From assembly GCA_029244925.1 (NCBI GenBank), contig JAQWQE010000007.1, positions 1 to 35,792 of the forward strand: a DNA stretch of 35,792 nt, given 5' to 3'. Below, piece by piece: positions 1,808 through 21,052 of the stretch (the stretch's first letter is position 1; the number at the start of each line of letters is the position of its first letter). A model generated the notes under the pieces. That model ran no database searches. It worked only from the letters and a program-made list of their open reading frames with translations, and was not told where the DNA came from. The position numbers and the translations under genes were made by a program. Origin of the DNA: Gammaproteobacteria bacterium. GTDB lineage: Bacteria > Pseudomonadota > Gammaproteobacteria > Steroidobacterales > UBA11654.

Positions 1808-3037
1808 TCAGATATTGATCGATTCACCGATATTAAGTGGCACTACCTCTATCTTTTGATCTTTATTAATTACCTCTAAACCTTCTGGAATAATTGCCCA
1901 AGAATTTGCTACCTGAAACGGTTTCAATTTGAAGGATTCTTGCCCTTCTAAAATTATGACCTCTAACATACCTTGATCATTCACTGTTGTTTTTGCTTTA
2001 GCAAAAAAACAGAATTTTTCCGATTTTTGAAATTCTAATTGATTTATAGCAATCAAAGATTTTTCTTTTGTTTGTCCTTGCATTAATCGTATTGCACTAT
2101 TGACGAAGAAACGAAAACCAACGGCTACAGAAACTGGATTGCCAGGCAGTCCAAAAACTATTTTCCCATCTGGAAATCTTGCCATCAATATTGGCTTTCC
2201 AGGCCTAATTCTTACTTTATGGAATAGTATTTCTGCACCCATATCAATTAATACAGAAGGTACAAAATCAGCTTTACCCGCAGACACTCCGCCACTGGTA
2301 GCAATAATGTCTGCTCCAGCATCCATGCATTTTTTAATTTGCATTTTTATTTCAGAGGGATCATCTTTTGCATGCAACTGATTGGTGCATTCAAGCCCCA
2401 ATCTTCTCACGCAAGCTTCAATATAAGGCCCATTGGTGTTTGGTATACTGGATTCACTATTTCCATCCAACTCACTCCCAGTTGCGACGATACCTATCTT
2501 TGGAGATTGAAAAACTTTTACCTTATTAATTTTGTTCATTAATAGAGACATTAAGTTATAAGGATTGATTGACTTACCTTTTTCTAGAATAATATCGCCA
2601 GGTAAAAAGTCCTCGCCCGCTAGCCGAACATTCCTCCCTTTTTTTATTGGTTCTTTTAAAAGTAAGTAACTTTTATTATTTTCTTTAATAATTTCAACTT
2701 GTTCTATAGGAATAACCGCATCAAAATTTTTGGGCATTAATGCTCCCGTCATAATTTCAAAACAAACACCATTCTCATTTGATGTAATGACTTTATCTCC
2801 AGCATAAATGGTATTTTTAATCTCTAAGCGTTGTGGATTCTTTTTTGTTATTTCTTTTGTTTCTTTGGATTTAATAGCAAACCCATCCATTGCAGAATTT
2901 GAGAAAGGAGGGACAAGCGATGTCGATACTACAGTTTCTGAATTAATACCAAAAGCTTGATGGACAGCAATATCTTTTATCTCTAGCGAAGTAAGAGATT
3001 TTTCTATAATATTTAATGCTTCTTTATAAGTGATCAT
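1808..3037 (-). CDS. moeA: Molybdopterin molybdenumtransferase MoeA
   Basis: MoeA catalyses the last step of molybdenum cofactor synthesis, inserting molybdate into adenylylated molybdopterin in the cytoplasm. The 409-residue length is normal for the family. Recognisable family motifs are the N-terminal NSAMDGFA at 46-53, the MPT-binding-like SGGVSAGKADF at 248-258, and GLPGNPVSV at 297-305, followed by a C-terminal beta domain. The gene is divergent from the molybdenum oxidoreductase operon starting at 3163, across a 125-base gap. This placement fits supply of cofactor to that enzyme. No other moa/mob genes are in the window, so the rest of the pathway must be elsewhere. The ATG at 3037 starts a typical MoeA N-terminus. 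Confidence 0.93.
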   Translation of the reverse strand: MITYKEALNIIEKSLTSLEIKDIAVHQAFGINSETVVSTSLVPPFSNSAMDGFAIKSKETKEITKKNPQRLEIKNTIYAGDKVITSNENGVCFEIMTGALMPKNFDAVIPIEQVEIIKENNKSYLLLKEPIKKGRNVRLAGEDFLPGDIILEKGKSINPYNLMSLLMNKINKVKVFQSPKIGIVATGSELDGNSESSIPNTNGPYIEACVRRLGLECTNQLHAKDDPSEIKMQIKKCMDAGADIIATSGGVSAGKADFVPSVLIDMGAEILFHKVRIRPGKPILMARFPDGKIVFGLPGNPVSVAVGFRFFVNSAIRLMQGQTKEKSLIAINQLEFQKSEKFCFFAKAKTTVNDQGMLEVIILEGQESFKLKPFQVANSWAIIPEGLEVINKDQKIEVVPLNIGESINI

Positions 3038-3162: not shown

Positions 3163-5913
3163 ATGACTAAGATTAATAGAAGACATTTCTTGCAAGGTTC
3201 AGCTGCGGCTGGGGTTGGACTTGGATTTCAATATGGATCCATTGATACAGCATTTTCAAATCAAGCCTATCGTGGTTTTGAGGATCTCTATAGAAAAAAA
3301 TGGACTTGGGATAGAGTTGTTAGAGGGACACATGGAACCAACTGTGCTGGAACTTGTGCTTTTAATGTATACATAAAGAATGGTGTTGTTTGGCGTGAAG
3401 AACAACAAGGGCAGTATGAGCAATTGGGAGATGTTCCTGATTTTGGACCCAGAGGTTGTCAAAAAGGAATGCGCCACCATAAATATATGTATGGTAAACA
3501 ACGCATACTCTATCCATTAAAAAGAGTTGGTGAAAGGGGTGAAGGAAAATGGGAAAGAATCAGTTGGGGGCAAGCCACCACAGAGATTGCAGATAAGTTT
3601 CTGGATTATGCAATAGAGTATAGTCCTGAATGTATTTCTTATGGAAGTGGCACTCAGATGTCCGTGAAAATGGCTTCTTTTTCTTCTCTTTTAAGATTTG
3701 GAAACATTACAGGAATAACTGTGCCTGAGTTTTTTTCAGGCGTTGGCGATCTCCCAACCGGTTCATACATGACCTTGGGACAAGTCTACACAGGCGATAC
3801 ATTTGCCTCAGTGTATAAAGCAAAATGCGTTCTAGTCTGGATGAGTAATCCTGCTGTGACAAGAATACCCGATGCTCATTTCTTTTGGGAGGCTCGTTAT
3901 AATGGAACCCAGGTCATTTCAATTTCTCCTGAATTTACTCCTACTGCAATGCATTCAAGTTTGTGGCTTAACCCAAAACCAGGGACTGATGCAGCCCTAG
4001 CTATGTCAATGGTTGGTGTCATGATTGATGAGAAACTCTATCAATCGGATTACATAAAAGAGCAAACCGATCTGCCTCTTCTAGTTAGAACTGATACGAA
4101 GGAATTCTTAAGAAGAGAGGATCTATCACTCTATGGCTTGCTGGCTGTGGATGACAATGTGTATTACATGTGGGATGAGGAAACTGATGCTATCGTACAG
4201 GCACCAGGAACAGGCAGAGCAGACAAGCCAATGGGCAGAGATAGACGAAAGCATGGAACTCTAGAATTAGGAAATATAAAGCCAAACTTAGAGGGAAGAT
4301 GGAAGATTGAGACATTGGATGGTGAAGTTGAGATTACAACTGTTTTTGAGCTATTAAAAGAGGAATGCAAGCAATATACACCTGAAAAAACATCTGAGAT
4401 CACTGGCGTTAATCCCGGTGTAATCAAAAAAACAGCTAGAGTTTTTGCGGATGCTCAACCGGGAATGATTTATGCAGGTTATGCTTCATGTAAATGGCTT
4501 CATGGTGATCTTTTGCAAAGAGCAATGCTTTTGATGTTAGCTCTGACTGGAAGTACGGGTAAAGAGGGTGGTGGCCTTCAAATTGCTAATGCACCAGTTA
4601 CTAGAGGATTAAATCAATTTGGCTTTTCTGATATCGGTCCTGCATTTCGACTGATTTCTGCTACCACATGGGATTATGATCATGGGGACATGAAGCAAAT
4701 GAATGAGAAAGTTTATGGCAAAGAACTTGCTGATACATATGATCAGTATTATAAAAAAAGTGTCAGTGAGGATTGGTTTCCAGATTACAGCCAAAATGGC
4801 TGGAAAATGGGTATTTTTGCTGGCAATAATGGTGCCAACTGGCGAGCTACTGGCAGTCATTGGAAAAAAAGTGCTTTGGAATCACTTGAAGTTATAGTTT
4901 CAATGGCACCCGATATGGGCATTACAGCTCTTACTTCGGATTATGTTCTTCCAATAGCTCATCACTATGAGAGAAATGATTTAATGCTTCAATCAAGAGT
5001 GCCATACCTGCAGGTTCTTAATGAGGCGGTGACCCCACTTGGTGAATCTGTTGATGACTGGGAAGCAAATAGAAGGTTGGCAGAAGCCATTAGTAAAAGA
5101 GCTAAAGAGAGAGGTATTAAGCCTATCAGAGACGTGGTTGACGGGAGAACTATTAGGAGAGATTACACCAAAACACTAGAGCTCTACACTATGGGTGGAA
5201 GACTTAAAAATTCAATTGATGTTGCTCAGTTTATTATTAACACAAGCCATGGGTTACCTAAGATTTCATTTGCAGAGTTATCAGAAAAAGGCATTGTCAG
5301 GGTAAACGGTTCGGATAACACCATGTGGGATAATGAGGACTCGCCTTATCATACTGAAATAGTTAAAAGCGTTAGAGAGAAACATCCGTATGAGACTTTT
5401 ACAGGGAGACAACAATTCTATATTGATCACGAATGGTTTATAGAGTTTGAAGAAACCTTGCCAACCTATAAAGAGCCACTCTCAATAAAAGATTTTCCTA
5501 TGAGAATGATGATGGGACATGCTCGTCATGGTATTCATAGTATGTGGAGGGATGATTCTTTACTGCTAAGTCTTCAAAGAGGTGAACCCGATATCTATAT
5601 TAATCCCGATGACGCAACAGAAAGAGACGTTCTTGATGGAGACATGGTAAGAATATTTAATATCGCTGGAGAGTTTTTTGCTATGGCCCATGTCAGTTCA
5701 TCTATCCAACCTGGAATGCTTTTTATGTACCATGGATGGGACCCTAAATTATTTAAAAATGGTAAAAACTTTGGTGAAGTTATTCCAACAGGGGGATTAA
5801 TTAAACCCACTTCAATGGCAGGAGATTATGGACATTTAGGCTATCAACCACTAGCTTTTGCACCGAATCAAACCTATAAAGACTTTACTTGTGATTTTGA
5901 GAAGTCAGCATGA
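3163..5913 (+). CDS. Tat-exported type II DMSO-reductase-family molybdenum subunit
   Basis: The catalytic subunit (916 aa) of a molybdenum bis-MGD oxidoreductase, of the group holding DMS dehydrogenase, ethylbenzene dehydrogenase, selenate and chlorate reductases and NarG. The N-terminus has a twin-arginine signal (NRRHFLQ), so it should be exported folded. The [4Fe-4S] ligand set is His57, Cys61, Cys65 and Cys99; histidine as first ligand is typical of type II enzymes. GDLPTG at 195-200 supplies Asp196, the likely Mo ligand of the type II branch. It overlaps the chaperone gene by ATGA at 5910-5913, and the iron-sulfur subunit follows. Membrane-anchored NarG lacks a functional cleavable Tat signal, so a soluble periplasmic enzyme is more likely. 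The substrate and the direction of the reaction cannot be read from sequence. Confidence 0.9.
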   Translation: MTKINRRHFLQGSAAAGVGLGFQYGSIDTAFSNQAYRGFEDLYRKKWTWDRVVRGTHGTNCAGTCAFNVYIKNGVVWREEQQGQYEQLGDVPDFGPRGCQKGMRHHKYMYGKQRILYPLKRVGERGEGKWERISWGQATTEIADKFLDYAIEYSPECISYGSGTQMSVKMASFSSLLRFGNITGITVPEFFSGVGDLPTGSYMTLGQVYTGDTFASVYKAKCVLVWMSNPAVTRIPDAHFFWEARYNGTQVISISPEFTPTAMHSSLWLNPKPGTDAALAMSMVGVMIDEKLYQSDYIKEQTDLPLLVRTDTKEFLRREDLSLYGLLAVDDNVYYMWDEETDAIVQAPGTGRADKPMGRDRRKHGTLELGNIKPNLEGRWKIETLDGEVEITTVFELLKEECKQYTPEKTSEITGVNPGVIKKTARVFADAQPGMIYAGYASCKWLHGDLLQRAMLLMLALTGSTGKEGGGLQIANAPVTRGLNQFGFSDIGPAFRLISATTWDYDHGDMKQMNEKVYGKELADTYDQYYKKSVSEDWFPDYSQNGWKMGIFAGNNGANWRATGSHWKKSALESLEVIVSMAPDMGITALTSDYVLPIAHHYERNDLMLQSRVPYLQVLNEAVTPLGESVDDWEANRRLAEAISKRAKERGIKPIRDVVDGRTIRRDYTKTLELYTMGGRLKNSIDVAQFIINTSHGLPKISFAELSEKGIVRVNGSDNTMWDNEDSPYHTEIVKSVREKHPYETFTGRQQFYIDHEWFIEFEETLPTYKEPLSIKDFPMRMMMGHARHGIHSMWRDDSLLLSLQRGEPDIYINPDDATERDVLDGDMVRIFNIAGEFFAMAHVSSSIQPGMLFMYHGWDPKLFKNGKNFGEVIPTGGLIKPTSMAGDYGHLGYQPLAFAPNQTYKDFTCDFEKSA

Positions 5914-6587
5914 ACAACTTATCAACTGCAATCAATTATGAAAGAGAATGCAATCAATCTTTAAGGAAATCAGAAAAAACAGCTGAATCTAGAAGCAATC
6001 TATACACATATTTTTCTCTTTTACTAGGATCACCCCACGAGATAGCACTCGAATCCAAAATAACATTCGATAATTCCTTGATAAAAGGGTTGCCATATTC
6101 CTTTCAGATTGGGGATTTAATTGAGGAATATAGCGGGATTGAAATAGTGGATTTGAAGCGTCAGTATAGCGCTTTATTCGAAGTCGGTGATGAAGGACCA
6201 CCGGCACCAATAAGAGAAGATCTATTTTTGTTACAACCGGCAAAGTTGAGAGAGGATTTAGTGCGTTTCTATGATTATTTTGGATACACCTTAAACGATG
6301 AATTTCAATGGCAAATGGACCACCTTTCGATCGAACTTGAATTCATGCATTTTTTAAGTTTTCAAGAGCTAGAATCTAATGATAATAAATTATCATTCCA
6401 ATTAGGTCAGTTGGATTTTTCAAAGAAGCATTTGCTAAATTGGGTGCCTGATTTATCTGCTACAATCAATCGTCTAGGCAATGGTGATATCTATTCAAAA
6501 ATTGTTGTAGAATTAAATAACTTTCTTTTAATCGATAATAATTGGCAAAAAGAAACAATCAATAATATTCATAAAACTGGGGGTTAA
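5910..6587 (+). CDS. TorD/NarJ/DdhD-like molybdoenzyme chaperone
   Basis: A 225-residue cytoplasmic protein of the kind that binds the Tat signal peptide or apoenzyme and helps insert the molybdenum cofactor before export. Family-like features are the segment RQYSALFEVGDEGPPAPIRED and the following helix with DYFGYTL and the acidic EFQWQMDHLSIELEFMHFL. It starts with ATGA overlapping the alpha-subunit stop, so the two are translationally coupled, and it ends two bases before the beta subunit. The order alpha-chaperone-beta is unusual: in ddhABDC, ebdABCD and narGHJI the chaperone follows beta. There is no signal peptide. The role is strongly supported by position, while sequence similarity in this family is always weak. 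Confidence 0.83.
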   Translation: MNNLSTAINYERECNQSLRKSEKTAESRSNLYTYFSLLLGSPHEIALESKITFDNSLIKGLPYSFQIGDLIEEYSGIEIVDLKRQYSALFEVGDEGPPAPIREDLFLLQPAKLREDLVRFYDYFGYTLNDEFQWQMDHLSIELEFMHFLSFQELESNDNKLSFQLGQLDFSKKHLLNWVPDLSATINRLGNGDIYSKIVVELNNFLLIDNNWQKETINNIHKTGG

Positions 6588-6589
6588 GT

Positions 6590-7585
6590 ATGGGTCAAGT
6601 TGCAATGGTCATTGATTTAAATAAGTGTATTGGTTGTCAAACCTGTACTACGGCATGCAAATCTTTATGGACCGATGAACCTGGTCAAGAATACATGCTT
6701 TGGAATAATGTTGAAACCAAGCCTGGACCTGGATATCCTCGTTATTGGGAAGAAGGTGGTGGAGGTTTTGATGAGCAAGGCGATCTTAAGCAAGATGGCT
6801 TAATGCCTAAGAAAGAAGATCATGGTGGTGAAGTTCCTTTGAATCATGATGAAGTCTACTTCAAAGGTCTTGAGGTAAGATTACAACAAGAAGAACCCAT
6901 GGCTAAAGGCAAGGGTGCAAATTGGGATGAAGATACAAGTTCAGGTGATTACCCCAATAATTATCATTTCTATTTACCAAGAATGTGTAACCATTGCACA
7001 AAACCAGCATGCTTAGAGGCATGCCCTGTTAGGGCAATATACAAAAGAGAAGAAGATGGTGTTGTGCTTATTGATCAGGATAAATGCCAAGGGATTAGAG
7101 AATGCAATAAAGCCTGTCCTTACGATAAAATATATTTTAATTATGTCACTGGAAAATCTCAGAAATGCATTTTTTGTTTTCCTCGATTGGAAGAAGGGGT
7201 GGCACCAGCATGTGCAAGACAATGCCCAGGCAGATTAAGATTTGTTGGTTACCTTGAAGATGAAGATGGTCCTATTAATGAACTAGTTTATCAATGGAAG
7301 GTTGCTTTACCTTTGCACCCAGAATACGGAACCGATCCTAATGTTTTTTATGTTCCTCCAATGTTGCCTCCAACATTTGATGAAAAAGGAGGGTTTGCTG
7401 ATGAGCCTAGAGTTCCAACGGAATATCTCAGAAGTCTTTTTGGTGAGAATGTCGATGAAGCATTAATTACGATGCAATATGAGATGGAGAAAAAGCAAGA
7501 AGGAAAAGAATCTAGATTAATGGATATTCTTATAGCAAAAGAATGGAAATCATTATTCAAAATTCCGGATGTTAAGATTTATTAA
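6590..7585 (+). CDS. Four-cluster iron-sulfur beta subunit (DdhB/EbdB/NarH-like)
   Basis: The electron-transfer subunit (331 aa) partnering the molybdenum subunit. Four cysteine groups are visible: C13/C16/C19/C23, C133/C136/C141/C145, C166/C172/C176, and C193/C196/C208/C212. The third group has Ile169 where the fourth ligand would be, implying a [3Fe-4S] cluster, as in type II enzymes, which usually carry Trp there. The C-terminal LPLHPEYGTDPNVFYVPP is characteristic of DdhB/EbdB/NarH. There is no signal peptide, so it should be co-exported with alpha by the Tat system. GGGGG at about 6579-6583 is a possible ribosome-binding site. No gene for the usual heme-b gamma subunit follows; a transporter-cytochrome fusion does. 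Confidence 0.92.
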   Translation: MGQVAMVIDLNKCIGCQTCTTACKSLWTDEPGQEYMLWNNVETKPGPGYPRYWEEGGGGFDEQGDLKQDGLMPKKEDHGGEVPLNHDEVYFKGLEVRLQQEEPMAKGKGANWDEDTSSGDYPNNYHFYLPRMCNHCTKPACLEACPVRAIYKREEDGVVLIDQDKCQGIRECNKACPYDKIYFNYVTGKSQKCIFCFPRLEEGVAPACARQCPGRLRFVGYLEDEDGPINELVYQWKVALPLHPEYGTDPNVFYVPPMLPPTFDEKGGFADEPRVPTEYLRSLFGENVDEALITMQYEMEKKQEGKESRLMDILIAKEWKSLFKIPDVKIY

Positions 7586-7614: not shown

Positions 7615-9570
7615 ATGGAGCTTTCAAAAGGTAGAATTTTTTTAATCATGACGTCATTAGTCTTATCTTCAGTAATGGCAAGTCTGGATTCAAGCTTTAC
7701 TCCAATCGCCATACCAGACATGATTGATAAGCTTGATTCAAGCACCAGTGAAGTTGTTTGGGTTGCCCTTGGTTATTTAATTGCTGCCAGTGGACCAATG
7801 TTATTGGCAGCTAAAATGGCTGATGGAATTGGCCATGCAAGATTTTTTCAGATCGGTACATTGATTTATAGCCTTGCAATGATTGCTTGTAGCTGGGCTC
7901 CTGATGCCAATACTCTAATTTCAATACGTTTTATACAAGGCTTTGGTATGGCTTTATTCTTGCCTAGTACATTTGCAATTGCTACAGCAATGTATGGACC
8001 AGAAAAAAGAGGAAGTGCCCTTGGAATTCTTCAAGCAGCTAATGCTGTTGGGTTTGTCATGGGGCCTGTTTTTGCTGGATGGTTAATTGATGCTTATGAT
8101 TGGTCAGCAATATTTTGGTCACGCATTCCATTTGCAATTTTGGCTATTTTATTGGCTTTTTTTGCTCTTGGCTTTAAACATCCTTTTCAATTCTCCGAAC
8201 GCAAAAAGACTTATGACTACCTCGGTGCAGTTTATTTAACCGCAGCACTATTTGGAATACTTTATGGATGCAATAAGTTGCCAGTAGAGGACAATCATTT
8301 AGACCCTTCAACTTGGATTATTTTTGCTCTTGGCTTTGCTTTTTTTGTTTTTTTTATCAAGCAAGAAAAAAAGCATAGTGATCCATTAATCGATCTCAAA
8401 CTGTTTTCTGATAGCAATGAGTTCTCTAAGGCTTCAATAGCTTTTGCTTCCGTGTTTGCTAGTTTTCCTGTCTATCTTTTTATACTGCCAATTATTATGA
8501 TCAGTGGGCTAGAGATGAAAGCTTGGGATGCAGGTCTAGCATTAGGTTTGGCTGCTCTTGCAACGTTGCTAATTAGTCCAATTGCTGGCAATCAGTCTGA
8601 TAAAATTGGACCTGAAAAATTATGCATGATGGGCGCTTTAATTACCGCGATTGGTTATCTTTTCCTTTTCCTAGTTTCAGCTGATTCAACTGTGCTTTCT
8701 ATATTGCCTGCAATGGCATTGATTGGTGCTGGAACGGGTTTATTTTTCTCACCTAATAATAATCTGATGTTATCCAGTGCACCTCCAGAAAGAGCAGGTA
8801 TGGTATCTGGACTCTTCGGTGTTCTGAGACAATCAGGTTATGCACTAGGCTTTGCAATTACAGCCAGTCTTTTTACTGCTATTCAAAATTATTTTGACTT
8901 GCAATGGGCCTATTCATCAATTGAGCCAATGTCTCAGACCTCAGCACTAAGCATTACTGATATCTATCATCAAGGCAGTCAATGGTCTCCTGAGATGCTT
9001 GTCTTCATTTTGCATATTGGGGTATTATTGTGCACCAGCATTCTTATCATCACATTTGTTAATTCACTACCAAAAATACAACTCAATATTACCAAGCACT
9101 CTATTGTAGTAGCCTCTTCATTGCTTATTGCTTTTCTATCGATTGCTGGATTTAGCTTAACTGCTCCTGGTTATCTTAAGAAAAATGTATTATCAAAAAA
9201 TCTAACGATTAAGGATAAAAACCCAATCAGTCCTTTTGGTATGCCTTCAAGATCGTTTGAGATTATCACGACTGCCACTGCTGCAAAGCTTGATAGCGAT
9301 ATCAGCAATGATAATTATGACAATCGATGTGTTTTTTGTCATGGCTCTAATTTAGAGGGTATACCTGGTTTAGGGGTATCTATCAAAGATTCTCTTTTTC
9401 TAAAAAAGATGGACGTTGATGAAATTGTTATCTTTCTTAAAGAAGGAAGGATGCCTAATTCCAGTGATACCTTATCAGGTGGGGTTATGCCTGGTTTTGC
9501 ATGGATGCCAGAAGAAGAAATTAGAGACATTGCAGCTTTTATAAAATCAGCAAATAATAATTCTCAATGA
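7615..9570 (+). CDS. MFS transporter (DHA2-like, 14 TM) fused to cytochrome c
   Basis: A 651-residue fusion. Residues 1 to about 490 form a major-facilitator carrier of the 14-segment drug:H+ antiporter type. Its signatures include MASLDSSFTPIAIPDM in the first segment, RFIQGFGMALFLPSTFA, and a motif-C-like GFVMGPVFAGWLID. An extra membrane segment at about 497-515 follows, then a linker and a c-type cytochrome domain with heme motif CVFCH (572-576) and a candidate axial methionine in GGVMPGF (Met625). With a cytoplasmic N-terminus, 14 segments would leave the end inside; the fifteenth moves the heme domain to the periplasm, where cytochrome c is matured. It lies 29 bases after the beta subunit and overlaps the next MFS gene by ATGA. 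No stop or frameshift interrupts the join. The substrate is unknown. Confidence 0.85.
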   Translation: MELSKGRIFLIMTSLVLSSVMASLDSSFTPIAIPDMIDKLDSSTSEVVWVALGYLIAASGPMLLAAKMADGIGHARFFQIGTLIYSLAMIACSWAPDANTLISIRFIQGFGMALFLPSTFAIATAMYGPEKRGSALGILQAANAVGFVMGPVFAGWLIDAYDWSAIFWSRIPFAILAILLAFFALGFKHPFQFSERKKTYDYLGAVYLTAALFGILYGCNKLPVEDNHLDPSTWIIFALGFAFFVFFIKQEKKHSDPLIDLKLFSDSNEFSKASIAFASVFASFPVYLFILPIIMISGLEMKAWDAGLALGLAALATLLISPIAGNQSDKIGPEKLCMMGALITAIGYLFLFLVSADSTVLSILPAMALIGAGTGLFFSPNNNLMLSSAPPERAGMVSGLFGVLRQSGYALGFAITASLFTAIQNYFDLQWAYSSIEPMSQTSALSITDIYHQGSQWSPEMLVFILHIGVLLCTSILIITFVNSLPKIQLNITKHSIVVASSLLIAFLSIAGFSLTAPGYLKKNVLSKNLTIKDKNPISPFGMPSRSFEIITTATAAKLDSDISNDNYDNRCVFCHGSNLEGIPGLGVSIKDSLFLKKMDVDEIVIFLKEGRMPNSSDTLSGGVMPGFAWMPEEEIRDIAAFIKSANNNSQ

Positions 9571-10959: not shown

Positions 10960-11592
10960 ATGTCAGATGAATCAACACAAGATAATTATGCGGGCGTTTG
11001 GGACACGGGTCTAGGTTTTGGGAAGAAGTCTGCACTTATTGTTATAGATCTATTACAAGGTTATACCACTGAAGGTTCTGCGTTGTATGCTCCAGGAGTT
11101 ATTGATTGTGTAGCACAGATGCCAGACATATTAGCTTTAGCAAGATCCAAAGGGGTTCCTGTCATACATACAAGAGTTTTATATACTCCACCAAATTACC
11201 CAGAAGGCGGTATCTGGATCAAAAAAGCGCCTGTGCTCAAAGACCTTGTTTTAGGTAATCCTTATGCAGAGTTCTGTGAAGGCATGGAACCAGCCGAAGG
11301 AGAGCTGGTGATTGTAAAACAATATGCAAGTGCATTCTTTGGCACTTCATTGGTTGCAACACTAAATGGTTTGGATGTCGATACACTCATTATTACTGGC
11401 TGCACTACTTCGGGTTGCATTAGAGCCACAGCTGTTGACTGCGTTCAACATGGTTTTCGTCCCATTTGTGTAAGAGAGTGTATTGGAGATAGGGCGGAAG
11501 GGCCGCATGAAGCTAATTTATTTGATATCAATGCCAAGTATGGAGATGTGATTGGTAAAGATATAGCAATGGATTATCTCAATAATTTATAA
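10960..11592 (+). CDS. Isochorismatase-fold amidohydrolase (N-carbamoylsarcosine amidase-like)
   Basis: A 210-residue cytoplasmic cysteine hydrolase. The probable triad is Asp30 (VIDLLQGY), Lys120 (IVKQYASAFFGT) and Cys153 (TGCTTSGCIRATAVDC). The C-terminal CVRECIGDRAEGPHEANLFDI is typical of the branch holding N-carbamoylsarcosine amidase, maleamate amidase (NicF) and related ring-fragment amidases. These enzymes hydrolyse a carbamoyl or amide bond, releasing ammonia and, for carbamoyl substrates, CO2. A strong ribosome-binding site AAAGGAG sits at 10944-10950, nine bases before ATG. The 76-base gap after the MFS gene contains no clear terminator, so the gene may continue the operon or have its own promoter. 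The exact substrate cannot be called. Confidence 0.85.
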   Translation: MSDESTQDNYAGVWDTGLGFGKKSALIVIDLLQGYTTEGSALYAPGVIDCVAQMPDILALARSKGVPVIHTRVLYTPPNYPEGGIWIKKAPVLKDLVLGNPYAEFCEGMEPAEGELVIVKQYASAFFGTSLVATLNGLDVDTLIITGCTTSGCIRATAVDCVQHGFRPICVRECIGDRAEGPHEANLFDINAKYGDVIGKDIAMDYLNNL

Positions 11593-11627: not shown

Positions 11628-12551
11628 ATGAGTGATTTAACACAAAGTAGACATTATGATTACATTCCGATCATTGATCGTGAGCCTTTCAAGTTACCAG
11701 ATGGTGCAAGAGTTGCAGTAATGCCTTATCTTAATATTGAGCATTTTCCAGCAGCAATAGCTGGAACATCTTTAATACCTGGCCCAGCTGGATTTTCTCC
11801 TGATCCATTGAATTATGGCTGGAGAGACTATGGTAATAGAGTGGGTTTATGGAGAATGAAAGAGCTAATGGATAAACTTGGAATGAGAGCAACGGTTTGT
11901 TTGAATTCAGAAATTATTAGAGAGTACCCTAGGATAGTTGAAGAAGCATTAGCCAGTAATTGGGCTTTTATTGGTCATGGTATCAATAATGCACCAGCAA
12001 ACTTTATTGGGAATGCTCCTGATGGACAAGGGGGTCATACTCCCTTGAGTGAAGAGAGGGAACGCGAAATCATTAGCACCGTTTGTAACACAATGGAAGA
12101 AGCAATTGGTAGGAAAACAAAAGGTTGGCTTAGTCCTTTTCTTACTCACACTGACAACACACCCAGAATCCTTGAGGAGAATGGAGTTGAGTATTTATGC
12201 GATTACACAGCTGATGATCATCCTTTCAAATTTAACACACCAAATAATAATCTTATTGCTGTCCCTTATACGGTTGAATTAAATGATATACCAGCTTTCC
12301 TTGGTCACTCAGGAGTGGGTGTTTCTTCAGAAGCTTTTGGCGATATGATCGTTGATCAATTTGATGTTCTTTATGAGGAAGGCGCTACCAATGCTAGATG
12401 TATGCCAATATGCTTGCATACCTTTCATGTTGGACAGCCCAATAAATTCAAGCATCTAAAAAGAGCCTTTGAATATATTGCTAGCCATAATGATGTTTTG
12501 CTTACCACTGGTGATGACATTAATGATTGGTATAGAGCTCAATATATGTAA
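11628..12551 (+). CDS. PuuE-like polysaccharide-deacetylase-fold hydrolase
   Basis: A 307-residue protein of the NodB/polysaccharide deacetylase fold, in the cytoplasmic branch that includes PuuE allantoinase. Supporting features are the N-terminal VAVMPYLNIEHFP (Glu38, His39), WRDYGNRVGLWRMKELMDKLGMRATVCLNSE, FIGHGINN with His117, GWLSPF, and a C-terminal LHTFHVGQPNKF. There is no signal peptide, which argues against an extracellular chitin or peptidoglycan deacetylase. It follows the isochorismatase-fold gene by 35 bases with an AGAGGAA ribosome-binding site. A cyclic amide or ureide opener beside a carbamoyl/amide hydrolase suggests a two-step route for a nitrogen-containing ring or ureide. 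That pathway is inference. Confidence 0.82.
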   Translation: MSDLTQSRHYDYIPIIDREPFKLPDGARVAVMPYLNIEHFPAAIAGTSLIPGPAGFSPDPLNYGWRDYGNRVGLWRMKELMDKLGMRATVCLNSEIIREYPRIVEEALASNWAFIGHGINNAPANFIGNAPDGQGGHTPLSEEREREIISTVCNTMEEAIGRKTKGWLSPFLTHTDNTPRILEENGVEYLCDYTADDHPFKFNTPNNNLIAVPYTVELNDIPAFLGHSGVGVSSEAFGDMIVDQFDVLYEEGATNARCMPICLHTFHVGQPNKFKHLKRAFEYIASHNDVLLTTGDDINDWYRAQYM

Positions 12552-12625: not shown

Positions 12626-13897
12626 ATGAAAAATAACCTTCTTTATTTAGTCATTACCATTTTCTTCTTGTTCAGTAATGAATTCATTTTGACTCAGCCC
12701 TTACCTCCAAAATTACCAGATGTTGGAGCAACCGTTATGAGGCTTCCAAAATTAATAGAAGAGTCTTCTATTAATTTAAAAGCCCCTAAAGGTTTTGAAG
12801 TTGAATTATTTGCAGAGAATTTGAGTTCACCAAGATGGCTATTGGTTCTTCCTAATGACAATATTTTAGTAGCACAATCGAGAACAGAATCTTTACCAGG
12901 TTTACCACCAGAGACAGTCAAAATACTTTCAAAAATGAATTTATTTGGCCCATCACCCAACAATATTATTGAAATCAGTAATAGAAATGGAGTGCGAAAA
13001 GCCCATCCTATTATCAGTGATTTAAATCAGCCCTTTGGAATGATTTACTTTAAAGAGCAATTGTATATTGCTAATACTGATTCAATTTTAAAATATAATT
13101 TTCAGAATTATAAAATTAATTCATCTCCTTTGAAGATTTTAGATATACCAGCTGGACCTCCAAACAATCATTGGACACGGAATATTATTTTGAATAAAGA
13201 GATGAATAAAATATTAGTCTCAGTGGGCTCTGGAACGAATGTTAATGAAGAGGGAACAGACAATATTGAGCGTGCAGCTATTTGGGAGATAAACTTGGAT
13301 GGTTCTGAAAAAAAATTGTATGCGACCGGACTTAGAAACCCAGTAGGCATGGCCTATGATCCATTCAGTGAAAAACTTTGGACCACAGTCAATGAAAGAG
13401 ATGGTCTCGGTGAATTTTTACCACCTGATTACTTTACTGAAGTAGTTGAGGATGAGTTTTATGGATGGCCATATGTTTATTTTGGTATCTATCCAGATCC
13501 AAGGCAGTTAAATATTAACCCATTGAAAGTAAAAAAAGCTCTAACACAGTCAAGAGTGCCAGACTTATCTTTAGGGGCTCATACCGTCCCATTGGGATTA
13601 TTATTTCACAGTGGTAAAAACATTGATCCTAGATATAAAAAAGGAGCTTTTATAGCAAGAAGAGGAGGTGTATCTACCTCTGAGTTGTCTGGCTATGATG
13701 TTATTTTTGTTCCATTTGAAGACGGTTATCCAACAGGAGAAATAGAGGTCTTTCTTTCAGGCTTTATTGCTAATATCGATAAGGCAGAAATTTTTGGTAG
13801 ACCTGTAGGTATAACTGAAATGAATGATGGATCTATGCTTGTTACAGATGATGTGGGTGGAAAAATATGGCGTATTCACTTCAGTGAAAAAAGTTAA
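12626..13897 (+). CDS. Secreted sorbosone-dehydrogenase-like beta-propeller (PQQ/GDH family)
   Basis: A 423-residue protein with an N-terminal hydrophobic Sec-type signal (about 1-23), so it should be periplasmic. The propeller motifs resemble the sorbosone/glucose dehydrogenase (soluble GDH-like) family: PKGFEVELFAENLSSPRWL, NHWTRNIIL, LYATGLRNPVGMAYDP, LWTTVNERDGLG, and EDEFYGWPYVYFG. Relatives oxidise aldoses or aldehydes using PQQ, though many members have no tested cofactor. A long hairpin precedes it, and there is no good Shine-Dalgarno before the ATG. Its final 14 bases overlap the likely GTG start of crtY, tying it to the carotenoid genes. Whether it belongs with the upstream catabolic block or with carotenoid synthesis is unclear. 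Confidence 0.83.
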   Translation: MKNNLLYLVITIFFLFSNEFILTQPLPPKLPDVGATVMRLPKLIEESSINLKAPKGFEVELFAENLSSPRWLLVLPNDNILVAQSRTESLPGLPPETVKILSKMNLFGPSPNNIIEISNRNGVRKAHPIISDLNQPFGMIYFKEQLYIANTDSILKYNFQNYKINSSPLKILDIPAGPPNNHWTRNIILNKEMNKILVSVGSGTNVNEEGTDNIERAAIWEINLDGSEKKLYATGLRNPVGMAYDPFSEKLWTTVNERDGLGEFLPPDYFTEVVEDEFYGWPYVYFGIYPDPRQLNINPLKVKKALTQSRVPDLSLGAHTVPLGLLFHSGKNIDPRYKKGAFIARRGGVSTSELSGYDVIFVPFEDGYPTGEIEVFLSGFIANIDKAEIFGRPVGITEMNDGSMLVTDDVGGKIWRIHFSEKS

Positions 13898-14954
13898 AAC
13901 CAATCTACTGATAGCAGGCGGTGGACTAGCTTCTTGCTTGTTAGCTTATCGGATTAAATTATTACTTCCTGATTTTGATTTCTTGATCGTTGAGAGGAAT
14001 CATCAGCTGGGAGGGAATCACAATTGGTCTTTTCATACCACCGATATCAATAATTCTCAATTTGAATGGCTTTCTCCTTTAATATCATATCGCTGGAATG
14101 ACCATGATGTTGTTTTTCCAAATCATTCTAGAACTATTAAAAGAGGTTACAACACAATCGCTTCAGTTGATATGCATGAGAAATTGACTCCTATCATAGG
14201 TAGTCATGTGCTTTTCAATCGGTCAATAAAGTCCTTAACTCATAAAGAAGCTCAATTAAATGATGGCACATTGATTGAAGCCAATATCGTGATTAATGCA
14301 ATGGGGCATTCTCCGAATAAAGATATTGCTATTGCTTACCAAAAATTCTTAGGAATTGAAATTGAATTAAATGAGCCTCATAACTTACAAAGACCCATAC
14401 TAATGGATGCGTCAGTCAACCAGCAAGATGGTTACCGATTTATCTATACATTGCCTTTTGATACAAGAAAACTGTTAGTTGAAGACACAAGATACAGTGA
14501 TAATATTTTAATCAATGAGGATGAATGTTTAGTTGAGATTAAAAAATATATCGTTAGTAAAGGTTGGGGTAATTATAAAATTATCAATAGGGAAAAAGGA
14601 GCTCTGCCTATTATTTTGAATGGAAATTATTCCAGTTTTATTGATAAGGAGATTGGAATGATTGGAATGAAAGGACTTTTATGCCATCCAACCACAGGAT
14701 ATTCTATTCCTCATGCAGTTCAGCTGGCTGAACTTATTACGGGTGAGCTTTCTAAGAAAGGTAATGATGTTACCCAAAAAATTAAGCAATATTCAATCCA
14801 TTCTTGGAAAAAAGACAAATTTTTTAGAATTCTCAATAGAATGCTTTTTTGGGCATGCAAGCCTTTAGACCGATATAAGATATTTCAACGATTTTATGCA
14901 TTACCAGAATCTTTGATAGCCAAATTTTACTCTAGAGAGTATTCATTTTTATAG
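13884..14954 (+). CDS. crtY: Lycopene beta-cyclase CrtY
   Basis: A flavoprotein-like cyclase that makes the beta-ionone rings of beta-carotene from lycopene. The dinucleotide-binding motif LLIAGGGLASCLLAYRI sits at the very N-terminus when the GTG at 13884 is used, giving a 356-residue protein. The longer frame from an ATG at 13824 adds 20 residues that are only an out-of-frame reading of the upstream gene, so I prefer GTG. FLIVERNHQLGGNHNWSFH and GLLCHPTTGYSIPHAV are CrtY-like. The protein is slightly shorter than the usual ~380 residues. The start lies inside the end of the sorbosone-dehydrogenase-like gene, suggesting translational coupling. An 82-base gap precedes crtI. Confidence 0.88.
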   Translation: MKKVKTNLLIAGGGLASCLLAYRIKLLLPDFDFLIVERNHQLGGNHNWSFHTTDINNSQFEWLSPLISYRWNDHDVVFPNHSRTIKRGYNTIASVDMHEKLTPIIGSHVLFNRSIKSLTHKEAQLNDGTLIEANIVINAMGHSPNKDIAIAYQKFLGIEIELNEPHNLQRPILMDASVNQQDGYRFIYTLPFDTRKLLVEDTRYSDNILINEDECLVEIKKYIVSKGWGNYKIINREKGALPIILNGNYSSFIDKEIGMIGMKGLLCHPTTGYSIPHAVQLAELITGELSKKGNDVTQKIKQYSIHSWKKDKFFRILNRMLFWACKPLDRYKIFQRFYALPESLIAKFYSREYSFL

Positions 14955-15036
14955 AAATTAAAAATGTTGATTGGGATGATGGATGGCTTCAAGCCCCCTG
15001 TAAAAATTACAAGTGCTTTAAAGGCAATGTATAGAA

Positions 15037-16527
15037 ATGAGTAAAAAAATTGCAATAATTGGAAGTGGGTTTGGTGGGTTGGCTCTTGCCATTAGACTCC
15101 AAGCTTCCGGGTTGGAGACTGTTATTCTTGAAAAGCGAGATAAACCAGGAGGTCGAGCCTACTTTTATGAAGAAAAAGGGTTCCATTTTGATGCAGGCCC
15201 TACAGTCATAACTGCCCCTCATATTTTTGAAGAATTGTTTGAATTGACTGATAAGAAGATGGAAGATTATATTGAGTTGATTCCAATAGATCCTTTTTAT
15301 CGACTGCTTTGGCCTGATGGTGAGGTTTTTAATTACAATTCTGATATGAATGCTCTTTATGCTCAGATTGAGAAACTTAATCCTAAGGACGTTCGTGGTT
15401 ATAAAAAATTTTTAAAATTCTCTAATGCAGTTTTCAAAGAAGGCTATGAGAAAATGGTTGATCATCCATTTCAATCAATTTGGAGTATGGTGAAAGTCGC
15501 TCCTCAGTTATTACTTTTGCAAAGTTTTAGATCAGTGTATTCAATGGTGTCGAAATACATTAAGCATCCAAAACTAAGGCAAGCATTCAGTTACCATACC
15601 TTGCTTTTGGGCGGCAGCCCTTATTCAAGTTCAGCCATTTATTCACTAATCCATGCGCTGGAGCATAAATGGGGTGTGTGGTTTGCCAAAGGTGGAACAA
15701 GTGCTCTAGTTGCAGGTTTGGTGAAACTATATGAAGATTTAGGCGGTACTTTGCATTTAAATTGTGCAGTGCAAAGTATTGAGACAAATGATAATAATGA
15801 AGTTGTTTCTATTCATAATGTGAATGGAGAGCGATTAGAAATTGCAGCTGTAGCAAGTAATGCAGACATTTATCATACGTATAATGAGTTGCTTAGTGAT
15901 AATAAGACTGCTCAAAAGAAAACTAAGGTTTTAAAGAGAAAGAAGTTTAGCCCTTCTCTTTTTCTATTGCATTTCGGTCTCCGTAGAGAGCATCCACAAC
16001 TAGCACATCACACGATTTTATTTGGCCCTAGGTGGAAGGAATTACTGGAAGATATTTACCATAATGGTGTTTTACCTGAAGATAATGCTCTTTATTTGCA
16101 TGCACCGTCAGTTACTGACAAAAGCATGGCACCAGAAGGTTGTTCAGCCTATTATGCACTGGCTGTTGTTCCTAATTTGGGCAAGTTAAACATTGATTGG
16201 TCAATAGAAAAAGAGAGATACAAGGAAGTTATTTATCAACAACTCGAGGAAAGATGCATACCTAATCTTAGGGAAGATTTAGTTGTAGAGAAAATCTTTA
16301 CACCGATTGATTTTGAAAAAGAACTCAATTCCTATCAAGGTGCAGCTTTCTCTATGGAACCATTATTGATACAGAGTGCTTTTTTTAGAATACATAATAG
16401 CGATCAAAAGATTAAAGGCCTCTATTTTACTGGAGCTGGGACTCACCCAGGAGCAGGGGTTCCTGGAGTGGTTAATTCAGCAAAAGCCACTGCAAGAATT
16501 ATGATTGATAATTTGAAAAATGGATAA
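15037..16527 (+). CDS. crtI: Phytoene desaturase CrtI
   Basis: A 496-residue FAD-dependent desaturase converting phytoene to lycopene at the membrane. The N-terminus has the FAD-binding IAIIGSGFGGLALAIRL, then DKPGGRAYFYEEKGFHFDAGPTVITAP; the C-terminus has YFTGAGTHPGAGVPGVVNSAKATA, the bacterial-type desaturase signature. The length is typical. It overlaps crtB by 8 bases, so the two are translationally coupled. A weak AAGG precedes the ATG by about 12 bases. The number of desaturation steps (lycopene versus neurosporene) cannot be read from sequence, but the linked CrtY and CrtZ imply lycopene. Confidence 0.95.
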   Translation: MSKKIAIIGSGFGGLALAIRLQASGLETVILEKRDKPGGRAYFYEEKGFHFDAGPTVITAPHIFEELFELTDKKMEDYIELIPIDPFYRLLWPDGEVFNYNSDMNALYAQIEKLNPKDVRGYKKFLKFSNAVFKEGYEKMVDHPFQSIWSMVKVAPQLLLLQSFRSVYSMVSKYIKHPKLRQAFSYHTLLLGGSPYSSSAIYSLIHALEHKWGVWFAKGGTSALVAGLVKLYEDLGGTLHLNCAVQSIETNDNNEVVSIHNVNGERLEIAAVASNADIYHTYNELLSDNKTAQKKTKVLKRKKFSPSLFLLHFGLRREHPQLAHHTILFGPRWKELLEDIYHNGVLPEDNALYLHAPSVTDKSMAPEGCSAYYALAVVPNLGKLNIDWSIEKERYKEVIYQQLEERCIPNLREDLVVEKIFTPIDFEKELNSYQGAAFSMEPLLIQSAFFRIHNSDQKIKGLYFTGAGTHPGAGVPGVVNSAKATARIMIDNLKNG

Positions 16528-17452
16528 AGTACTTTCTCATAGTTTTGAGATGATCAAGGTAGGTTCCAAGAGTTTTTCTGGAGCCTCTAAACTCCTTGAT
16601 AAACATACAAGAGAATCTGCAATCTTACTCTATTCATGGTGTCGTTATTGCGATGATCAAATTGATAATCAATTGCTTGGATTTAATTTATCATTTGAAG
16701 AAGTAAAAGAATCTGATGACAAGATACTTCAAAAGATTGAGAAAAAAACTCACCAAGCTATTAACAATGAATCGTTAGAACAATTTGAATTTGAAGCACT
16801 TCGCCGTGTGCTTGAAAAACATCAAATTCCTGAGCAATATCCAATAGAGCATCTAGAAGGCTTTAGAATGGATGTGGAGAAGAAACAATATCATACCATC
16901 ACGGATACTCTCGATTATTGTTATCATGTGGCCGGCGTTGTGGGAATTATGATGGCTTGTATTTTTGGAATTAAAGATCCAAAAGTCTTAGAAAGAGCAG
17001 CCGATTTAGGGATTGCTTTTCAACTTTCAAATATCGCAAGAGATGTTATTGCTGATGCTGAGGTGGGAAGAGTATATCTACCCAAAGAATGGCTGGTTGC
17101 ATATGATATTGATCCAGGATCAATTTTAGAAATAAAAAATAGAATGAAGCTTTTTCTCCTTATTAAAAAACTATTGGATTTATCAGACCAATATTATGAT
17201 TCTGCAAATATAGGGATTCAATCACTGCCATTGAGAATAAGATGGGGGATCAAAGTGGCTCTATCGGTGTATCAACAAATAGGTTTTAACATAAGAACCT
17301 TGAGCTCCAATGCTTGGAATCAAAGGATTTATGTTAAGAGGCCTTATAAGCTGTTTCTCGCAATGAAATACTTCATAAAGTATTTTTTATTGCCTGAAAA
17401 AACTGCATCAAAAGATTTGGAAAGAGATCCTTCGCTTTGGAAAAAAAACTAA
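16520..17452 (+). CDS. crtB: Phytoene synthase CrtB
   Basis: A 310-residue prenyl-condensing enzyme joining two GGPP molecules into 15-cis-phytoene. Two aspartate-rich Mg-binding motifs are present: CRYCDDQID near the N-terminus and LSNIARDVIADAEVGRVYLP in the middle. LEGFRMDVEKKQY and the YHVAGVVGIMMA helix are also characteristic. The gene starts within the last 8 bases of crtI and ends overlapping the convergent crtZ stop. GGPP synthase (crtE) is not in the window, so its substrate must come from a gene elsewhere. Confidence 0.95.
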   Translation: MDKVLSHSFEMIKVGSKSFSGASKLLDKHTRESAILLYSWCRYCDDQIDNQLLGFNLSFEEVKESDDKILQKIEKKTHQAINNESLEQFEFEALRRVLEKHQIPEQYPIEHLEGFRMDVEKKQYHTITDTLDYCYHVAGVVGIMMACIFGIKDPKVLERAADLGIAFQLSNIARDVIADAEVGRVYLPKEWLVAYDIDPGSILEIKNRMKLFLLIKKLLDLSDQYYDSANIGIQSLPLRIRWGIKVALSVYQQIGFNIRTLSSNAWNQRIYVKRPYKLFLAMKYFIKYFLLPEKTASKDLERDPSLWKKN

Positions 17453-19057: not shown

Positions 19058-21052
19058 ATGATTATCATCAATAAACAACAAAAAATTACAGTTCTATCAG
19101 TATTCTTGTTTTTATTTGTATCCATTGAATCATTGGCCTCTGAAAGTGATTGGATGCATTATGGGGGCGATGAAGGAGGAGGTCGGTATTCATCTTTATC
19201 TCAAATTAATCGAGCAAATGTGGGTCAATTGGAAGTGGCTTGGAAATACAAAACAGGCCATTTGGATCGTGTTCCAGAAAACCTTGCTTTTTTGAAAAAA
19301 ATGGTTGGCTTTCAGGTCACCCCCATCATACTTCCAAATGATGTTGGTGGTGCCTTGATTTTATGCACACCTTTCAATGAAATTATTGCTCTCAATCCTA
19401 TCAATGGTGAAAAAAAGTGGTCCTACGACCCTAAAATTGATTTAAGACCTTTTGCCGGTCGATTCAGTTGCAGAGGATTAGCACAATGGAGAAATCCTAA
19501 GCTTCAATTGACTGAGATTTGTGCCCACAGTCTTTTTCTTGCAGCCAATGATAAGAGGTTGATAGCGGTAGATGCCCAAACAGGAGTGTTATGCCCAGCA
19601 TTTGGTAATAATGGTATTGTCAATGTAACTCCTGTAATACAAAATCTAGAACCAACGAATCAAATTAGAGCCATGCAATTAAAGTCTCCGCCTGCAGTGG
19701 TTAATGGTGTGATAGTCATAGGAGGCACTGGAAATAAGTTTAAAGACGCAAGTTCAGTGAATGGAGCAGTAAGAGGTTTTAGTGCAGTTGATGGTTCTTT
19801 TCTTTGGGCTTTTGATACATTAATAAGAGATGAGGATAATCCTGAAGCGCTCCCCTATGATGTAGGTGGTGCAAATGTATGGACAACGATGTCTGTTGAT
19901 AGCAAAAGAGATCTAGTATTCGTTCCAACTGCAAGTGCGGCTCCAAATTTCTATGGCGGGTTGAGACCGGGGGATAATCGTTATGCTAATTCTGTTCTAG
20001 CAATAAAAGCTTCAACAGGAGAATTAGTTTGGCATTATCAAACCATCCATCATGACATATGGGATTGGGATCTACCGACCCATCCTCTATTGGTTGATAT
20101 CACTACAAATAAAGGCAAAGTGCCTATCGTAATTCAGTTAGGTAAAACAGGAATGGTGTATACTTTTTATCGTGAAACAGGATTACCTTATTTTGAGATA
20201 GAAGAAAGGCCCGTTGCTACCGATGGAATTTTAGGCGATCAATTATCACCAACACAACCCTTTCCAGTGAAGCCACCACCACTTATAAGGCAGGGTATTA
20301 CCCCTGATGATGCTTGGGGAGTTACCCCAATAGAAAGAGAAGGTTGTCGAGAAAAAATTGCTGGAGCTCGATATGGTCGAATGTTCACCCCCATCTCTAC
20401 AAAAGGAACCATTATGTATCCACAAGTTGGAGGTGGAGCAAATTGGGGAGGAGGTGCATTTGATACAGAAAGAAATATTTTAGTTGTCCCAGTTTCAGAA
20501 GTACCTTTTTATGTTCGACTAATCCCAAAAGATGAAGTTGATCAGAAATTAGCAAAGTCTCCCATGGCTGGTAATCCTATGGGGCCTCCTGGCTTAATCA
20601 AAGGAACTGATTATGGTTTGGAGCAATCTCCATTACTTTCTCCTTTATACACCCCTTGTACGAAACCACCTTGGTCATCATTGGTTGCAGTGGATATGAT
20701 TGAAGGCGAGATCTTATGGAAGAAACCTTTTGGGAAAATTGACAAACTCAGTCCTCTGCCCATTGGTTTTGAATGGGGAACACCATTTGCTGGAGGTGCT
20801 ATAACCACAGCAGGCGGAGTTATATTTATTGGAGCGACTGCGGATGAAAGGTTTAGAGCTTTTGATATCGAAACGGGTGAGAAATTGTTGGAGTTAAAAG
20901 CACCCACTTCTGCTATGGCTACTCCAATGACTTATATGGCAAATGGAAGGCAATATGTAGTGATTGCTACAGGAGGTCATATGTGGAATTACAGAGACGG
21001 AATTAGCGATGAAATTATTGCTTATGCTTTACCTGAGAATTTAATTCAGTAA
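19058..21052 (+). CDS. Periplasmic PQQ-dependent dehydrogenase (Gcd-like propeller)
   Basis: A 664-residue quinoprotein with a Sec signal peptide (about residues 1-28, ending near SLAS). The mature protein is an eight-bladed propeller of the membrane glucose dehydrogenase type but without Gcd's N-terminal membrane domain. Motifs are DWMHYGGDEGGGRYSSLSQI, CTPFNEIIALNPINGEKKW, SCRGLAQW, WHYQTIHHDIWDWDLPTHP and the C-terminal DEIIAYALP. Such enzymes oxidise alcohols, aldoses or polyols in the periplasm and pass electrons to quinone or cytochrome c. No PQQ synthesis genes are in the window. The end overlaps the convergent gene at 21041 by 12 bases. The substrate is unresolved. Confidence 0.88.
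   Translation: MIIINKQQKITVLSVFLFLFVSIESLASESDWMHYGGDEGGGRYSSLSQINRANVGQLEVAWKYKTGHLDRVPENLAFLKKMVGFQVTPIILPNDVGGALILCTPFNEIIALNPINGEKKWSYDPKIDLRPFAGRFSCRGLAQWRNPKLQLTEICAHSLFLAANDKRLIAVDAQTGVLCPAFGNNGIVNVTPVIQNLEPTNQIRAMQLKSPPAVVNGVIVIGGTGNKFKDASSVNGAVRGFSAVDGSFLWAFDTLIRDEDNPEALPYDVGGANVWTTMSVDSKRDLVFVPTASAAPNFYGGLRPGDNRYANSVLAIKASTGELVWHYQTIHHDIWDWDLPTHPLLVDITTNKGKVPIVIQLGKTGMVYTFYRETGLPYFEIEERPVATDGILGDQLSPTQPFPVKPPPLIRQGITPDDAWGVTPIEREGCREKIAGARYGRMFTPISTKGTIMYPQVGGGANWGGGAFDTERNILVVPVSEVPFYVRLIPKDEVDQKLAKSPMAGNPMGPPGLIKGTDYGLEQSPLLSPLYTPCTKPPWSSLVAVDMIEGEILWKKPFGKIDKLSPLPIGFEWGTPFAGGAITTAGGVIFIGATADERFRAFDIETGEKLLELKAPTSAMATPMTYMANGRQYVVIATGGHMWNYRDGISDEIIAYALPENLIQ

Follow-up and report, generated by a model that had tools for sequence, protein, structure and literature searches.

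A DHA2-type carrier fused to a cytochrome c domain in a type II molybdoenzyme operon of marine bacteria

Gene content of the molybdoenzyme locus

The window analyzed here, a 35,792-nucleotide stretch of a gammaproteobacterial genome, carries an operon in which the genes for the catalytic alpha subunit of a molybdoenzyme, a molybdoenzyme chaperone, and the iron-sulfur beta subunit are followed by a gene that joins a major facilitator superfamily (MFS) carrier to a c-type cytochrome domain (Table 1). The gaps between the genes for alpha, the chaperone, beta, the fusion, and a second MFS carrier (MFS2) are -4, 2, 29, and -4 bp, respectively. This order, with the isochorismatase-family and PuuE-like hydrolase genes that follow it, is kept in the genus, and the order from alpha to the fusion is preserved in family f11 (f1, f11, and f15 are anonymous family labels). 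The first-pass annotation had named recurrence of the fusion beside the same molybdoenzyme as a check of its reading, and such recurrence was found. A MoeA gene adjoins alpha in genomes of family f15 as well.

Table 1. Features of the molybdoenzyme locus in the window and of the encoded fusion protein
Feature	Position	Strand	Basis
MoeA-type molybdenum insertase, divergent from alpha	1808..3037	-	PF03453/PF00994
Alpha subunit, molybdopterin oxidoreductase, type II DMSO reductase family	3163..5913	+	PF00384/PF01568, TIGR03479, PDB matches, Tat motif
TorD/NarJ-type molybdoenzyme chaperone	5910..6587	+	PF02613; TIGR03482 at 88.7 bits, below cutoff
Beta subunit, iron-sulfur electron-transfer subunit	6590..7585	+	TIGR03478 at 506.1 bits (cutoff 480.7)
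Fusion: DHA2-type MFS carrier, 15th helix, linker, and cytochrome c domain, 651 aa	7615..9570	+	Frame, Pfam, NCBIfam, alignment, AlphaFold2
Fusion, carrier half, residues 1-483, 14 transmembrane helices	7615..9063	+	Pfam, alignment, AlphaFold2, Foldseek
Fusion, 15th transmembrane helix, residues 492-514	9088..9156	+	AlphaFold2, loop charges, relic comparison
Fusion, periplasmic linker, residues 519-562, predicted disordered	9169..9300	+	AlphaFold2, separate-cytochrome comparison
Fusion, monoheme class I-type cytochrome c domain, residues 566-651	9310..9567	+	Pfam, alignment, model fold
Second MFS carrier (MFS2), anion:cation symporter-like, 438 aa	9567..10883	+	PF07690; best NCBIfam TIGR00893, below cutoff
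Isochorismatase-family amidohydrolase	10960..11592	+	PF00857; same neighborhood throughout genus
PuuE-like polysaccharide-deacetylase-fold hydrolase	11628..12551	+	PF01522; TIGR03212 below cutoff; same neighborhood throughout genus

The alpha subunit carries a Tat motif (NRRHFLQG) at its N terminus, and D196, within the sequence GVGDLPTG, aligns with Asp223, the molybdenum ligand of the ethylbenzene dehydrogenase subunit EbdA. An aspartate ligand to molybdenum is a criterion for subfamily II of the DMSO reductases (PMC8840923). The score of alpha against TIGR03479, 894 bits, falls below the cutoff of 984.75 and therefore marks it as a divergent type II member. Its best matches in the PDB were PcrA (4ydd/5e7o) and EbdA (2ivf).

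A search with EB_dh (PF09459), the family of the heme-b gamma subunit, found no match in the genome of the window, which is 79% complete, or in 14 of 15 other fusion-bearing genomes; the single match, in genome G155, lies elsewhere in that genome. A gamma subunit encoded at a distance was rejected on this result, G155 excepted. Within the reach of the EB_dh search, the initial description thus holds that the fusion gene directly follows the iron-sulfur subunit gene of an enzyme with no known gamma subunit.

The genome of the window (G000) encodes a second type II alpha subunit, about 56% identical, on contig 37 (locus L112, 6855-9611), which adjoins genes for an AMP-binding ligase and for an amidohydrolase; neither a beta gene nor a cytochrome was recognized next to it. 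Elsewhere in the window, three plus-strand features were noted: a 235-residue protein conserved in the genus, with no Pfam match, between the Vut_1 and MoeA genes (1090-1797); a carotenoid-type group comprising lycopene cyclase, an FAD amine-oxidase-type enzyme, and phytoene synthase (13824-17452); and a large PQQ-dependent quinoprotein dehydrogenase right after a gene of the zinc-type alcohol dehydrogenase family (19058-21052).

Architecture of the fusion protein

The fusion gene is one uninterrupted frame with an ATG start. Pfam MFS_1 covers residues 15 to 412 of its product (E = 5.5e-52) and Cytochrom_C residues 568 to 646 (E = 2.2e-5, above its cutoff), with the C terminus matching both Cytochrom_C and Cytochrome_CBB3. 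Against TIGR00711, the NCBIfam model of the DHA2 EmrB family, the protein scored 236.7 bits, compared with a curated cutoff of 230.2. It contains the TM1 aspartate, the motif B arginine, and the motif C Gly-Pro of MFS carriers, and the residues concerned, D25 (TM1), R105 (TM4), and G150-P151 (TM5), are invariant in 22 sequences. The heme motif CVFCH occupies residues 572 to 576 (C572-xx-C575-H576). Invariant in the 22 homologues are C572, C575, H576, M625, and P626; Met625 is the candidate axial ligand.

An AlphaFold2 model was built with 22 homologues and reached a mean pLDDT of 79. It comprises the 14 MFS helices, a 15th helix, a disordered stretch, and a small helical C-terminal heme domain, with the boundaries given in Table 1. 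The best Foldseek neighbors of the whole model were EmrB (8zal), QacA (7y58), and EfpA (8ufd). The heme domain, when folded separately, resembled small class I-type cytochromes c in its structural elements, with XoxG (6onq) as the top match; the matches listed were all cytochromes c or contained such a domain, at TM scores of 0.74 or less by target, and only one of them passed an E value of 0.001. Profile scores, Pfam, and the model therefore agree with the first-pass claim that a single frame joins a 14-segment DHA2 carrier to a c-type heme domain.

Counting charges by the positive-inside rule, we obtained a mean sum of lysine and arginine over the loops of 16.8 inside versus 3.4 outside. These loop charges predict an inside N terminus and an outside C terminus with the heme domain. 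Together with the 15 modeled helices, they concur with the earlier placement of the heme domain in the periplasm, as a prediction. The genome of the window encodes Ccm-type assembly proteins (PF01578), which makes covalent heme attachment possible, and cytochrome c maturation genes occur in six of the seven genomes tested.

Distribution of the fusion

Full-length fusions were identified in at least 22 genomes from three families of the order, two of which are single-contig genomes (G037 and G074), and the hosts are some marine bacteria. The same frame is open in independent metagenome-assembled genomes (MAGs), SAG contigs, and complete genomes, which rules out an assembly error or a chance fusion. 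A stop or frameshift near 9150-9330, or restriction to this assembly, which the first-pass annotation had set out as grounds for abandoning its reading, was accordingly not seen in these genomes.

With the exception of G006, which has neither the fusion nor a closely related alpha of the clade described below, the other genomes of the genus encode full-length homologues that are 72 to 94% identical to the protein of the window. The copy in the sister-genus genome G010 is cut by a contig end. Homologues in f15 and f11 are 44 to 50% identical; that of G375, from another genus of f11, is 35% identical and is without carrier helices 7 and 8. The G375 protein (L113, 6553-8403) has 12 + 1 helices, an odd total by which parity is kept. 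In G009, a second, frameshifted copy near a contig end (contig 5, L049, 6435-8337) has its cytochrome as a separate 159-residue frame; it is probably a sequencing error or a decaying copy and was set aside from the analysis.

In a gene tree with three other DHA2 carriers as outgroups, the fusions formed one clade with one group per family. Their carrier halves are distant from other DHA2 carriers of the order, at approximately 30% identity. No homologue outside the order was found at an E value of 1e-60 in a sample of 369 genomes of the class or, with a profile, at 1e-80 in a sample of 398 genomes of the phylum, both samples including the window's own; these strict cutoffs address homologues of the present fusion rather than MFS/cytochrome fusions of other origin. 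A plasmid search matched the carrier half alone, to ordinary DHA2 carriers. At one f15 locus, neighboring genes resemble subunits of a bacteriochlorophyll-synthesis reductase, from which we would guess that f15 is Halieaceae-like.

Co-occurrence with one clade of alpha subunits

Alpha subunits with at least 62% identity to that of the window constitute a supported clade in a sample of 396 genomes of the order, and 23 of these genomes carry both a clade alpha and the fusion. Three genomes deviate from this pattern. The contig of G318 that carries a clade alpha breaks off within beta, just before the place expected for the fusion; G391, which has the fusion and no alpha, is a fragmented MAG of 640 contigs. 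G295 is a true exception, with a clade alpha, no fusion, and no recognizable cytochrome in the neighborhood of alpha.

The association extends to genomes in which the genes are unlinked. Some related alpha is present in 39 genomes of f15; eight of the 39 have a clade alpha, and the identical eight have an intact fusion, at a distance of 86 to 132 kb or on separate contigs. Fisher's exact test gave a P value of 1.6e-8, which is not corrected for kinship and is overstated, since the co-occurrence counts are non-independent through shared descent. The gene trees of the fusion and alpha agree well: both separate into the same three groups by family, and their branching inside f15 is similar.

Separate cytochromes and loss of the carrier

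Relatives of the heme domain also exist as separate proteins. In G024, a related alpha-beta pair is directly followed by a separate cytochrome c gene, the product of which has a lipobox-like signal. The clade alphas of G098 and G114 stand in the order alpha-chaperone-beta-separate cytochrome c-MFS2, which indicates that the fusion sits in the cytochrome slot of the operon. These two f15 genomes additionally carry the fusion elsewhere, and it is therefore not the sole possible acceptor there. Several f15 genomes harbor chaperone-cytochrome c-MFS2 or cytochrome c-MFS2 clusters, and near homologues of MFS2 adjoin separate cytochromes c in other genomes. A different molybdoenzyme lies near the chaperone-cytochrome-MFS2 cluster in two f15 loci (L124, 447-3961, and L047, 14013-16000), and the alpha in L124 matches a pyrogallol-hydroxytransferase-like domain.

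The carrier-free cytochromes are lipoprotein-like, soluble, or anchored by one to two helices. Several share with the fusion linker the motif PFGMxSR, which precedes the heme domain and contains the invariant residues F541-G542. Operon position, co-occurrence when unlinked, and separate cytochromes in the equivalent gene slot together link the fusion to the molybdoenzyme, in agreement with the association first proposed from gene order. The existence of the cytochrome without a carrier in relatives implies that heme function needs no transport.

Four further proteins, from other f15 genomes, are relics of the fusion after carrier loss. Those of G167 and G190 (224 and 223 residues; L124, 4776-5450, and L125, 2246-2917) consist of the last helix of the carrier, helix 15, and the cytochrome; those of G118 and G146 (193 and 192 residues; L164, 5805-6386, and L165, 2863-3441) consist of helix 15 and the cytochrome. 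Helix 15 of the fusion thus corresponds to the anchor helix retained in the relics. In three of the four (G190, G118, and G146), carrier homology extends upstream beyond the present start, stop-interrupted or out of frame. G118, G146, and G167 are listed only with alphas of lower identity, and G190, which is 72% complete, is not listed with any. Since none of the four is listed with a clade alpha, the cytochrome persists without the carrier, and the carrier is found only where a clade alpha occurs, G391 apart.

This pattern bears on whether the carrier is an ordinary multidrug-type efflux pump unrelated to the substrate of the molybdoenzyme. The fusion would then be an accident of gene order, in which an MFS gene was read through into a neighboring cytochrome gene, the signal anchor became helix 15, and the product was tolerated because the cytochrome still works. 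Membership of the DHA2 family, a MarR-type regulator gene near the fusion in three f15 genomes, the predicted disorder of the linker, and the gene content suggesting that the cytochrome works as a separate protein elsewhere all fit such an origin. However, the intact fusion goes together with one alpha clade also where the two are unlinked, and f15 genomes that have retained the cytochrome but are not listed with a clade alpha have a degraded carrier. An unrelated pump is not expected to vanish together with the enzyme, and we consider this explanation unlikely.

Selection on the two halves addresses a further alternative, that the MFS half has lost transport and is a mere membrane anchor for the cytochrome. 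Membrane anchoring is in fact common among the separate relatives, some through a lipobox-like signal and others through one or two helices. Yet one helix suffices as an anchor in the relics, and G375, having lost helices 7 and 8, retains a 12-helix carrier. Between the window and G037, the carrier is 58% identical, compared with 33% for the cytochrome, and dN/dS between close relatives is 0.048 for the carrier versus 0.161 for the cytochrome, so that purifying selection is stronger on the carrier, the motif residues of which are invariant. On conservation and dN/dS, a degenerate MFS half was rejected, and a purely anchoring role is very improbable.

Proposed role of the fusion

We lean, with moderate confidence, toward a reading in which the fusion serves specifically as the partner of a type II molybdoenzyme in the periplasm, its heme domain standing in for the gamma subunit and its carrier transporting the substrate or product. 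In this scheme, the molybdenum-containing alpha subunit would act on its substrate in the periplasm, and electrons would pass from alpha through the iron-sulfur beta subunit to the fused cytochrome c domain, in place of a heme-b gamma subunit, and onward to the respiratory chain. This direction would be reversed if the enzyme were a reductase. The DHA2 half would be a proton-coupled carrier that handles this enzyme's substrate or product, probably by exporting a compound that is then processed in the periplasm, and MFS2, being of the organic-anion symporter type, would probably take the product back up. A loop of export, periplasmic processing, and reuptake is plausible from the two flanking carrier types. 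We infer the attachment of heme, the transfer of electrons from beta to the heme domain, the cargo and direction of the carrier, and the division of labor between the two carriers. The flexible tether would hold heme and carrier in one membrane complex.

Several observations count against this reading. The f15 fusion gene lies away from the molybdoenzyme genes, and in the three f15 genomes examined, a MarR-type regulator gene is close to it; such a regulator beside the gene is also typical of stand-alone drug pumps. The second cytochrome of G098 and G114 and the clade alpha of G295, with neither fusion nor recognizable cytochrome nearby, weigh in the same direction.

The first-pass annotation had further suggested that the fusion may couple electron flow to transport. 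The two activities are physically fused, and the oxidation state of the heme could in principle gate or energize transport, or transport could drive electron transfer. Against such coupling, the linker of approximately 45 residues is predicted to be disordered and is poorly conserved, at 18% identity or less to G037 and G077; we identified no contact surface; and the gene content of relatives suggests that the cytochrome functions without the carrier. Linker and carrier-free cytochromes thus leave electron flow that powers or gates transport unsupported, and we regard a redox-coupled carrier as highly improbable. The broader notion that one polypeptide couples a secondary carrier to the electron chain of the molybdoenzyme in one complex, with the redox state of the heme influencing the carrier, is in our judgment a doubtful one. 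The suggestion that the fusion may tether an electron acceptor at the carrier describes its anatomy fairly.

Comparison with known systems

MFS secondary carriers are normally separate from redox chemistry. The fusion matches the DHA2 carriers EmrB, QacA, and EfpA, which are 14-helix MFS drug:H+ antiporters, in its fold, its number of helices, its motif residues, and its profile score, but differs from them in the extra 15th helix, the C-terminal heme domain, and the lack of an adjoining gene for an EmrA-type adaptor.

The only related fusion in the literature searched, which was of limited scope, is MamZ of magnetotactic bacteria. It too is an MFS carrier with a C-terminal redox domain, in this case a YedZ-like ferric reductase domain, and a combined role in redox chemistry and transport has been proposed for it (PMC3971196, PMC3905215). 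The carrier of MamZ is GlpT-like and has 12 helices, its ferric-reductase-like domain is embedded in the membrane, and the protein functions in magnetosomes, whereas the present protein pairs a 14-helix DHA2 carrier with a water-exposed class I-type cytochrome c and is linked to a molybdoenzyme. A domain search found no ferric reductase domain of the MamZ type in the C terminus of the present fusion. An MFS/redox fusion is known already from MamZ, and PcrC is a known case of a c-type cytochrome that partners a type II enzyme. A DHA2 carrier paired with a monoheme cytochrome c was not encountered in that literature, nor was any characterized MFS/cytochrome c fusion, which accords with the first-pass remark on the novelty of this pairing.

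By tracking one alpha clade through three families, and through the decay of its carrier where that clade is missing, the fusion opens an unexplored pathway in the periplasm of marine bacteria to genetic study. It would represent a new way of wiring type II molybdoenzymes without the usual heme-b subunit, and it makes direct hand-over of a compound between a fused carrier and an oxidoreductase testable.

Among type II enzymes, the system of the window shares alpha and beta subunits with perchlorate reductase, PcrABC, in which a c-type cytochrome is the direct partner of the iron-sulfur subunit (PMC5845722). Electron flow could run either way, given that PcrA, the best solved relative of alpha, is a reductase. 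The molybdoenzyme may accordingly be a reductase for which the fused cytochrome is the donor, with the carriers exchanging an oxyanion or its product. PcrC offers a precedent, as it donates electrons via PcrB to PcrA (PMC5845722). Nonetheless, neither chlorite dismutase nor a comparable partner gene was seen in the vicinity, the window holds no sign of anaerobic respiration, and alpha has a lysine, Lys444, that aligns with EbdA Lys450, a position at which PcrA has His. We find this reading quite improbable.

Ethylbenzene dehydrogenase, EbdABC, is also built on type II alpha and beta subunits, and its alpha has in common with that of the window both the aspartate ligand of molybdenum and the lysine. 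It differs in that its complex includes a heme-b gamma subunit, where the operon of the window encodes a cytochrome c domain. Lys450 of EbdA is a catalytic residue of the active site, and the match of Lys444 to it may, as a weak lead from the alignment, point toward a dehydrogenase or hydroxylase.
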